The notes beneath the pieces were generated by a model, which saw nothing but the letters and a program-made list of their open reading frames with translations, had not been told where the DNA came from and did no database searches. A stretch of DNA of 40,715 bases from Singulisphaera sp. GP187. GTDB taxonomy: Bacteria > Planctomycetota > Planctomycetia > Gemmatales > Gemmataceae. This document shows, in pieces, positions 21,254 through 25,777 of the stretch. The translations under genes were made by a program, and so were the position numbers. Location: positions 1 to 40,715 of the forward strand of contig CAMDQN010000059.1 of the NCBI GenBank assembly GCA_945905925.1, given 5' to 3'. Positions within the stretch are counted from its first letter, which is position 1, and each line of letters starts with the position of its first letter.

Positions 21254-21287
21254 CTTCTACACCTCCCAAAAGTCCGAAACTCTAGTC
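21254..21287 (-). repeat. 34-bp motif shared with 116-149
   Basis: 27 of 34 bases match the motif that ends the truncated PAS gene. Here it begins inside the sucB stop codon and lies next to the TIR-element fragment, which supports the view that it is also mobile-element debris. Confidence 0.4.
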
Positions 21288-22518
21288 AGATTTCAAACAA
21301 GATACGCTCCGGGTTCTCCACGCATTCTTTGATACGCACGAGAAAGTGCACGGCTTCGCGGCCATCAATCAACCGGTGATCGTAACTGAGCGCCAGATAC
21401 ATCATCGGCCGAATCACGATCTGGTCGTTCACGACAACGGGGCGCTTCTGGATGGTGTGCATCCCGAGAATCGCACACTGCGGCGGGTTCAGAATCGGCG
21501 TGCTGAGCATCGACCCGAACACGCCGCCGTTGGTGATCGTGAACGTGCCGCCTTCGAGGTCGGGCACGGTCACCTTGCCGTCGCGTGCCTTCTTCGCGAC
21601 CGCGGCGATGGCCTTCTCGATGTCCGCGAAACCCATCTGGTCCGCACCGCGGATGACCGGCACCATCAAGCCCTTCTCGGTGCTGACCGCGACGCCGATG
21701 TCGTAGAAGTGCTGGTGGATAACATCAGTGCCGTCGATTTTGGCGTTCACCAGCGGGAACGTTTTCAATGCGTCAACGGCGGCCTTCACGAACACCGACA
21801 TGAAGCCGATCTTCGCGCCGTGCTTCTTTTCAAATTTCTCATTGTACTTCGCGCGCAGATCCTGAATCGCGGTCATGTCCGCTTCGTTGAACGTGGTCAG
21901 CGTCGCGGTGGTGTTCTGGCTTTCGAGCAATCGGGAGGCGATCGTCTTGCGGATCTTCGACATCGGTTCGCGGGTCGTTCGCGTTTCTGGCGAGCGGGGG
22001 GCGTCAGCCCCCCGAGGCTTCGGCGCGCCGTTGGTCACTGGCGCAGTCTCGTTGGATTTCGGCGTGGACTCGGGGGGCTGACGCCCCCCGCTCGCCAAAA
22101 CCGCGTCTTCCTTCAGGATGCGCCCGCCGGTGCCGGTGCCTTTCACGTCCGCGGCGCTCACGCCGGCTTCCGCGAGCACGCGCTTCGCGGCCGGCGACGG
22201 AATCGCTTCCAGATGTGGCAAACTCGTAATTGGCGCCGCAACAGGGGGCTGACGCCCCCCGCTCGCCTGGGGTGCGGTCGCCTCGGTGTCGATCTGCGCG
22301 ACGACGGCCCCGATAGCGACCGTTGCACCCTCTTTCACGAGGTGTTTGACAACCCCCGCGACCGGCGCGACGACCTCTTGCGAAGCCTTGTCGGTGCCCA
22401 TCTCGAAGAGCGGCGCGTCGGCCTTCACGAATGTGCCATCCGCCACGAACCAGCGGTTCAGCGTGGCCTCGGTGATCGACTCACCGGCCTTCGGCACCGT
22501 CACCTGTTCGATTGCCAT
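21286..22518 (-). CDS. sucB: 2-oxoglutarate dehydrogenase E2 (dihydrolipoyl succinyltransferase) with repeat-derived linkers
   Basis: 410 residues. Transfers succinyl from E1-bound intermediate to CoA through lipoyl-lysine in the TCA cycle. Domains: lipoyl domain 1-80 with the lipoylated lysine K44 (MGTDKAS); peripheral-subunit-binding domain about 102-141 ([20 protein letters not shown]); catalytic domain about 185-410 with DHRLIDG. The EMGTDKAS sequence and the sucA neighbour support succinyl specificity. Odd: the first linker (about 85-92) and the second (142-177) are encoded by copies of a palindromic repeat, giving ASGGRQPP twice and [11 protein letters not shown] once, all in frame. It follows sucA on the same strand. 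Confidence 0.95.
21989..22096. repeat. 108-bp in-frame palindromic element inside sucB
   Basis: Arms 21989-22016 and 22069-22096 are perfect 28-bp reverse complements (arm starts GGCGAGCGGGGGGCGTCAGC) around a 52-base spacer. The full length, 108 bases, is exactly 36 codons and lies in the linker between the E1/E3-binding and catalytic domains. Both arm orientations are free of stop codons in the frame used. The same arm occurs at 22244-22267 and, with two substitutions, at 25692-25777. Confidence 0.92.
22244..22267 (-). repeat. Solo arm of the same palindromic family inside sucB
   Basis: 24 bases identical to the arm at 22069-22096, read in the same codon phase to give ASGGRQPP. It lies in the linker between the lipoyl and subunit-binding domains. 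No partner arm is seen nearby. Confidence 0.85.
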
Positions 22519-22535: not shown

Positions 22536-22659
22536 AACCTCTCCCCCCAACCCCCTCCCCTAATGAAGGGAGGGGGAGCAGAACCAAACACAGAAGACGA
22601 TGGTTCGTCTTCTCTTTCTCCCCCTCCCTTCTTAGGGGAGGGGATTGGGGGGAGAGGTT
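22536..22659. repeat. Long hairpin between sucA and sucB
   Basis: Outer arms AACCTCTCCCCCCAA... (from 22536) and ...TTGGGGGGAGAGGTT (to 22659) pair over about 45 bp with one mismatch and a one-base bulge. An inner segment AGAAGACGA/TCGTCTTCT also pairs. It fills almost the whole gap between the sucA stop (22665) and sucB start (22518), so it sits inside a presumed operon. It leaves the sucB ribosome-binding region only about 17 bases. Confidence 0.9.
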
Positions 22660-25691: not shown

Positions 25692-25777
25692 GGCGAGCGG
25701 GGGGCGTAAGCCCTCCGAGTGAATCACAACTCATTGGAGTTGCAACGCACTCGGAGGGCTTACGCCCCCCGCTCGCC
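25692..25777. repeat. 30-bp perfect palindrome, same family as in sucB
   Basis: Arms 25692-25721 and 25748-25777 are perfect reverse complements over 30 bp (start GGCGAGCGGGGGGCGTAAGC). The loop contains a nested CAACTC-ATTG-GAGTTG hairpin. The arm differs from the sucB copies at two positions over their shared 28 bases. It lies between the lipoprotein stop and the sucA promoter region. Confidence 0.95.

Follow-up and report, generated by a model that had tools for sequence, protein, structure and literature searches.

How does a palindrome come to be translated, in frame, within the gene for a core enzyme of the TCA cycle? The question is posed by sucB in a planctomycete genome, where the window (the whole stretch of DNA analysed, 40,715 nt) carries the gene on the reverse strand at 22518..21286 (21286..22518). 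Its reading frame, uninterrupted from start to stop, encodes a dihydrolipoamide succinyltransferase (E2) of 410 aa, in which Pfam places a lipoyl domain at residues 4-76, an E3-binding domain at 108-138 and a catalytic domain at 180-407; the source is Gemmataceae-like, its nearest named SucB matches being at 82% in a Gemmataceae MAG and at 81% in Gemmata sp. IIL30. The original prediction described a "perfect 108-bp palindromic element", a single insertion of 36 codons into the flexible linker preceding the catalytic domain. The 28-bp arms are indeed exact reverse complements (21989-22016 and 22069-22096), and the 108 nt of 21989-22096 are translated within SucB from the ASGGRQPPE arm to the other, but a 52-nt spacer (22017-22068), partially resembling orthologous linkers, parts the arms, and the unit is the 28-nt arm. 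The 24-nt core of the arm recurs a third time in the gene, at 22244-22267. SucB contains three translated REPs, and the 108-nt stretch is a REP doublet, comprising two of the three. Each is foot-first on the strand given: copy 1, in linker 1 (22240..22267, reverse strand, tail TGTT), encodes ASGGRQPPV at residues 85-93; copy 2, the first doublet arm in linker 2 (22069..22096, reverse strand, tail CGAG), encodes ASGGRQPPE at residues 142-150; and copy 3, the second doublet arm in linker 2 (21989..22016, forward strand, tail CGAG), encodes the ten residues 169-178. The arms do lie in the pre-catalytic linker, as proposed, but the REPs occupy both linkers, the third being in the other one. The AlphaFold model of SucB has a mean pLDDT of 78, falling below 50 at residues 84-103, 146-176 and 332-341; the first two of these stretches cover copies 1 and 3, whereas copy 2 has only its last residues inside 146-176.

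The 28-nt unit begins with the foot GGCGAG, followed by CGGGGGGC, the loop GTMA, GCCCCC and a 4-nt tail, and is predicted to fold into an 8-bp stem, to which the first tail bases contribute, with a loop of 4 nt and the foot left unpaired. The suggestion that the palindrome had been copied was borne out when the genome was searched with the arm DNA, as the exact 24-nt core occurs 15 times, and a 22-nt core with up to three mismatches finds 194 sites, compared with 0 for a reversed control. The element was matched in 19 of the 41 genomes searched, counting the source genome. Published REPs are hairpins of 20-40 nt that carry an unpaired tag on one side and commonly occur as inverted dimers, whose spacers mostly measure 20-100 nt (PMC3733652); the unit length of 28 nt and the 194 sites are within the range of a 20-40 nt hairpin present in tens to hundreds of copies. 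The composition of the family was described from 140 copies in 98 loci and the window, picked from the matches listed rather than from all 194 sites, and leaving out at least three listed places (C48:26744, C11:29871 and C218:23). The foot is kept at 97-99% per position in these copies, although only its outer GG lies outside the search core, with 98-99% at those two positions. The tails are TGTT (43), TGAT (40), CGAG (17), CGCT (11, mainly in fused copies) and various others. A lone unit folds at -8.6 kcal/mol with its foot unpaired, which is unremarkable, as 11 of 200 shuffled sequences were equally low.

The arrangement of the copies is more distinctive. Among 29 neighbouring pairs less than 300 bp apart, the feet point outward in 27, of which 22 are spaced by 39-90 bp and five are fused into a double-foot palindrome. 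Most inverted pairs are separated by 57-62 bp, with the sucB pair at 82. The 4-nt tails are identical within 15 of the 22 doublets, against an expectation of 4.0 when the arms are re-paired, although the spacers beyond the tail are dissimilar between doublets. The sucB doublet folds, as a single strand, at -55.7 kcal/mol, compared with -27.0 (sd 2.7) for 200 shuffles, none of which was as low; a second doublet of this family, also in the REPIN arrangement, lies between genes directly upstream of sucA (25692..25777) and folds at -51.1 against -16.1 (sd 2.5). The structure of the unit, the outward-facing pairs, the preferred spacing and the matched tails are together the marks of REPs and REPINs, and the identity of the repeat as a REP is well supported. 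The five fused palindromes (L133, L163, L168, L169 and L192), in which the core starts are 6 bp apart, could have originated through central deletion of a doublet.

REPs are not confined to the spaces between genes. Of the 140 copies, 61 lie wholly within predicted genes, 69 are intergenic and 10 straddle the end of a gene. The genes were called by our own codon-score caller, and part of the 61 lie near a predicted start and may precede the true one. As ~89% of the sequence read was called coding, genes are avoided by REPs, yet are far from closed to them. Forty-three copies lie more than 30 residues from the start of the protein and more than 10 from its end. The six frames are used very unevenly by intragenic copies (21/17/15/4/4/0): GADAPRSP is encoded 21 times, GGLRPPLA 17 times, ASGGR[KQ]PP 15 times and two others four times each, with no copies in the frame that has a stop in the commonest loop form. 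The loop base also depends on the frame. In the GADAPRSP frame it is TGAC in 16 copies and TTAC in two, compared with 10 and 44 in intergenic copies (p 1.4e-7). TGAC would create a stop in the GGLRPPLA frame, for which the counts are 0 and 15 (p 0.1); in the ASGGR[KQ]PP frame they are 9 and 6 (p 0.003), for which no protein-level reason is apparent to us. Given this uneven frame use and the loop-base bias between frames, we take it that selection sees the REP-encoded peptides. The palindrome had been supposed to be "selected to be open in both orientations", but openness of the six frames is not supported as a selected trait, with 5 and 4 of 6 frames open in the two loop versions, no more than in shuffled sequences (means 5.28 and 5.44).

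The positions of the copies within proteins are similarly non-random. Of the 50 predicted genes that carry REPs, 39 were compared with Pfam, and 34 of the proteins were used in a linker test, leaving out L121, L125 and L142 (no family) and L153 and L194 (weak or repeat hits only). In these 34 proteins 32 of 43 sites fall outside domains, against expectations of 14.8 for the main families and 13.7 when smaller families over the cut-off are included (0 of 20,000 simulations as high), where domain extents were entered by hand from the best printed stretch and second stretches of a family were not counted. Twelve sites are strictly between two domains, and that in UvrA is one residue beyond the matched P-loop stretch. 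Three different E2 genes are hosts: sucB, a two-lipoyl E2 at L160 and a short E2 at L132. Further hosts include DNA polymerase I, UvrA, a DNA ligase, PriA (with the REP close to the start), TrmD, a class I tRNA synthetase, a sigma-54 activator, a sigma-70-type factor, a thiolase and GlnE; Pfam domains underlie these names, the finer of which also depend on our own judgement. DNA repair genes have also been recorded as REP hosts elsewhere (PMC3733652).

Comparison with orthologues reveals what stood at these sites without the repeat. SucB was matched in 27 of the 41 genomes, including the source genome (G000), although two matches were of little use, one lacking the region (L045) and one changing frame (L042). 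Close REP copies (<=1 mismatch) number three in G000, three in G015 and one in G010, with the linker-1 copy of G015 in the opposite orientation to that of G000. The three copies in G013 are diverged, at 4-5 mismatches, and the stems of two are compensated; a single 5-mismatch stretch in G012 is not counted as a REP; and the linkers of G009 and G007 hold no REP, being Ala/Pro-rich with another sequence. Aligning SucB had been proposed as the check on whether the linker is ancestral. The linker is, but the REP residues are not, as G012, G009 and G007, which have no clear REP, carry different Ala/Pro-rich residues at the REP positions. Linker 1 is 36 aa in G000 and 34-42 in 14 relatives; linker 2 is 51, within a range of 33 to 55 over 14 relatives, and exceeds that of G012, G009, G007, G006 and G001 by only 4-7 residues. 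A single 108-bp insertion is thereby ruled out, by this small net gain, by the third copy in sucB and by the genome-wide 28-nt unit: the arms are two REPs. The spacer between them bears some likeness to orthologous linkers, its best 18-mer matching G016 at 17/18 and G006 at 16/18 against at most 15 in 220 shuffled linkers; in the other 12 orthologues the best match, at 11-14/18, was not above shuffled linkers. Segments of other REP-carrying genes, 24 in all and joined into one query, yielded further filled and empty sites in five relatives. Many G000 sites are common to G015 or G003, and few to G012 and G006; the REP is inverted between genomes at L141, and decayed copies occur in some relatives, for instance in G003 and G015 at L187.

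Intragenic REPs in conserved genes provide filled and empty sites that can be aligned across species. Relative to REP-free orthologues, the net gain of a single REP of 28 nt is 0 to +21 nt at well-aligned sites and +24 at most, with negative changes (as low as -91) where the loop of the relative holds a longer or different insert; a clean insertion of 28-30 nt was not observed at single-REP sites. For the thiolase REP, the difference from 16 relatives of the same genus is only -3 to +3 nt, whereas squalene-hopene cyclase is 78 nt longer with its doublet than REP-free orthologues are.

The empty sites were also searched for parts of the repeat. This test started from 78 orthologue sequences with at least seven REP mismatches, of which five were removed for another REP-like hairpin, and to which three sucB sites (five relatives each) and the thiolase (seven relatives) were added, totalling 95 sequences at 32 sites, with a doubtful G006 row for L160 left out. 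The foot octamer GGCGAGCG was matched at 7 or 8 of 8 positions, at offset 0, in 7 of the 32 sites, a count which depends on alignments of variable loops; the mean was 0.30 for 167 permuted octamers, none of which reached 7, and 0.28 (maximum 2) in 29 shifted windows. The foot did not score at offset 0 in the other 25 sites, and none of the three sucB sites scored. Allowing 8 nt of slack to either side gave 10 sites, against 3.35 expected and a permutation maximum of 9, and at the REP-free sites no other tile of the REP was above its own permutation maximum. An initial wide-window test of 28 sites had found a 7-of-8 match at 14, compared with a mean of 4.0 and a maximum of 11 in permutations; shifted windows gave as many as 9 and the opposite strand gave 6. 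In a smaller SucB alignment, G012 has AGCGAGCG exactly beneath the linker-1 foot; at L122, GGCGAGCG is present without a REP in two relatives, G003 and G015, the latter being the relative whose SucB matches best. On its simplest reading, this comparison of sequences suggests that the target supplies the foot and that less is gained than the full element. The target tetranucleotides of IS200/IS605 elements likewise belong to the target site, in line with the guide-sequence account of their targeting.

RAYT transposases are the candidate enzymes for moving such repeats. Three PF01797 matches were found in the source genome, two of them over the cut-off, with no REPs near the genes in any of the three loci, and the RAYT family that is flanked by REPs in relatives has no close member found in G000, where the best E-values were 2e-7 and 4e-6 at loci without REPs. 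Hence the cognate enzyme is missing, unassembled (the genome being 96.6% complete) or beyond the search. In relatives the association is tight. The transposase P0001 of G026 matches PF01797 at E 5e-7 and is flanked by REPs with GCGGGC stems, its reading frame ending within one; its family was matched in 26 of 41 genomes, and similar, non-identical hairpins surround RAYT genes in G026, G025, G018, G012, G003, G008 and G015. Their feet are CCGAG (in G025 and G026) or GGCGA[GA] (in the others), their loops are GTNA or GCAA, and compensated stems occur in these REPs too. A repeat of at least 15 nt is common to both flanks at 17 of 19 P0001-family loci, the two misses having 41 and 105 nt upstream; as generic Y1 transposase loci, the negative control, also have flanking repeats in 14 of 20 cases, this count shows an association and not specificity. 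No RAYT with the GGGGGC stem on both sides was found among the loci fetched, one such REP being upstream of the L090 gene. Separately, a RAYT gene in G008 (L092, C15) has several imperfect GGCGAG REPs on either side.

We consider it highly probable that RAYT-type insertion of REPs at a pre-existing foot, followed by filtering according to what the protein tolerates, accounts for the three copies in SucB. A class-3-like HUH transposase (a RAYT), which either works in trans or has since disappeared from the lineage, would insert the hairpin into single-stranded DNA beside a GGCGAG(CG) foot that is already there, and selection would then retain only in-frame copies in tolerant linkers and loops; the insertion step itself we infer. 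We see no need for the REP peptides of SucB to have a function, and regard them as tolerated decoration. Intragenic copies expose this filter at the level of the protein, in the frame that survives out of six and in the loop base. More tentatively, and with considerable doubt, the hairpin may be written onto an existing foot: a single-stranded GGCGAG(CG) in the target would be recognised, the 20-nt hairpin joined to it and host bases overwritten, with the second arm of a doublet inverted across host DNA, and E2 linkers may serve as recurrent landing pads across species and orientations, because their Ala-Ser-Gly-rich linkers supply both the foot codons (GCG AGC GG) and tolerance.

The same footprints might instead reflect copying or recombination of REP single strands through microhomology, overwriting host sequence without RAYT catalysis, a possible if not a likely course. 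The near-zero change in the thiolase, single-REP gains that stay below 28 nt, the microhomology to the foot at REP-free sites, doublet arms matched around unrelated spacers, and the failure to find a cognate RAYT in the source genome would all be expected of it. However, related REPs tightly flank RAYT genes in relatives, as a RAYT-driven system predicts; the squalene-hopene cyclase doublet is a clear insertion; and the length of the loops drifts between relatives as well. RAYT-type insertion must also be set against the reverse history, in which REPs are ancestral and deletion of the hairpin in relatives spared the foot. Such deletion would produce a foot without a hairpin, and decayed REPs do exist, as at L187, but this history is unlikely, as L122 would require two losses (in G015 and G003) rather than one gain, and nothing of the REP except its foot exceeds the permutation maximum at the empty sites.

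Nor do conserved copies make a strong case that selection maintains intragenic hairpins for what they do as RNA, DNA or peptide, such as translation pausing, gyrase binding or tuning of the linker, which we regard as improbable. E2 genes carry REPs three times, and in 16 site-by-genome comparisons where the REP is shared, identity at third codon positions is 89.4% within the element, as opposed to 63.4% in the flanks; however, shared sites were picked by their match to the consensus, which inflates the identity of the element, and hence the difference is not relied upon. The G015 row for the L196 gene, a false orthologue at the GlnE locus (L338), was excluded from this final comparison. Sites also vary among relatives and can hold the REP in the opposite orientation, as in linker 1 of sucB and at L141, and insertions in linkers and loops may be neutral, though effects are suspected in repair genes (PMC3733652). 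Finally, that an ancestral Ala/Pro-rich linker acquired codons forming a palindrome by convergence, as the composition and similar length of aligned E2 linkers might suggest, is refuted by the dispersed copies of the core, exact and near, by the 69 of 140 that take the same form between genes, and by REP-free orthologues differing in both residues and DNA, leaving it a vanishingly small chance.

The repeat can be set beside several described systems. It had been thought that no equivalent was described in Planctomycetes, but REPs in this phylum and intragenic REPs in the Verrucomicrobium O. terrae are published, most REPs being intergenic (PMC3733652), as are planctomycete class 3 TnpA_Y1 genes with flanking hairpins (PMC6006769). 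The GTAG and CGTC REPs of PMC3733652 share with the SucB type the size of the hairpin, a tag at one end, inverted dimers, copies within ORFs and repair-gene hosts, and CGTC family 1 shares the 4-nt loop and 8-bp stem. The CGTC super-family is given there as having the tag CGTC, TGTC or CCTC, AT pairs at the stem base and a CCA tail, whereas the tag here is CGAG, with a C-G stem base and tails mostly of TGTT, TGAT and CGAG; and GTAG REPs differ in being tagged with GTAG or a close variant, where the SucB type has GGCGAG, with CGAG at the foot of its stem. The REPs of PMC3733652 are also mostly intergenic, in contrast to the 61 of 140 copies in predicted genes here.

The class 3 TnpA_Y1, found mainly in Planctomycetes, Acidobacteria and Proteobacteria, have flanking hairpins with the foot CnGA and the motifs NHVH, W[TA] and YV[VI]xEQ (PMC6006769). 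The P0001 family resembles them as planctomycete HUH transposases with flanking hairpins and high genomic copy number. Across 19 aligned members the motifs are mostly [NT]H[VIF]H, WW[TAS] and Y....Q, such that the HUH and W motifs are close to the published motifs; the Y motif is variable, the nearest to that published being YVLYEQ in L086, with none exact. Only CCGAG among the feet CCGAG, GGCGAG and GGCGAA fits CnGA, and the passages of that account consulted here report no insertion of the class 3 type into protein genes. The GGCGAG repeat is a Gemmataceae REP family, probably of class-3-like type, and by its tag neither GTAG nor CGTC. The REPINs of Pseudomonas fluorescens are likewise inverted, at preferred distances and able to fold into one hairpin, but here the spacers are unrelated beyond the 4-nt tail, that of SucB partly resembles the host linker, and singlets outnumber doublets (PMC3116915 for the Pseudomonas REPINs).

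The Rickettsia RPEs, which had been named as the precedent, are a fair one, being palindromes translated in frame in conserved protein genes, and tolerated (PMC2229807 and PMC3733652). Compared by published tags and lengths, they differ in tag and are longer than the 28-nt unit, at 105-146 bp (PMC2229807), and RPE-4 and RPE-6 are CGTC REPs (PMC3733652). As in-frame intragenic REPs and RPEs are already known, the SucB case is a variant. Within the open-licence literature, the REP peptides were not found in papers, and no titles or abstract openings described a GGCGAG REP family; the dissemination of REPs has been called poorly understood (abstract of PMC8266576).

Other repeats occur at similar places in these genomes. 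At both REP positions of the L196 gene, which belongs to menaquinone biosynthesis, or beside them, G012 (L384) has two hairpins of another REP type, with the foot GCGAAC (GCGAACC-stem-GTAA/GCAA), and hence different repeat families take the same place in different species. Short repeats of the GCGGAGCGCGGAAC type are found in the same protein loops as G000 REPs at L339 and L382 (G012) and at L329 and L381 (G016). The sucB of G016 (L042 / L203) changes frame inside linker 1, separating the lipoyl part from the rest through either a frameshift or an assembly error. A second, unrelated palindrome, of the CCTCTCCCCCCAACCCCCTCCCC type, lies in the gap between sucA and sucB (window 22536-22659), with arms of ~40 nt that are 85% complementary, and repeats resembling it are translated in frame in loops of relatives, as PPAPSPKKGG...PPFLGEGVGG at L368 and in similar form at L370, L371 and L316.
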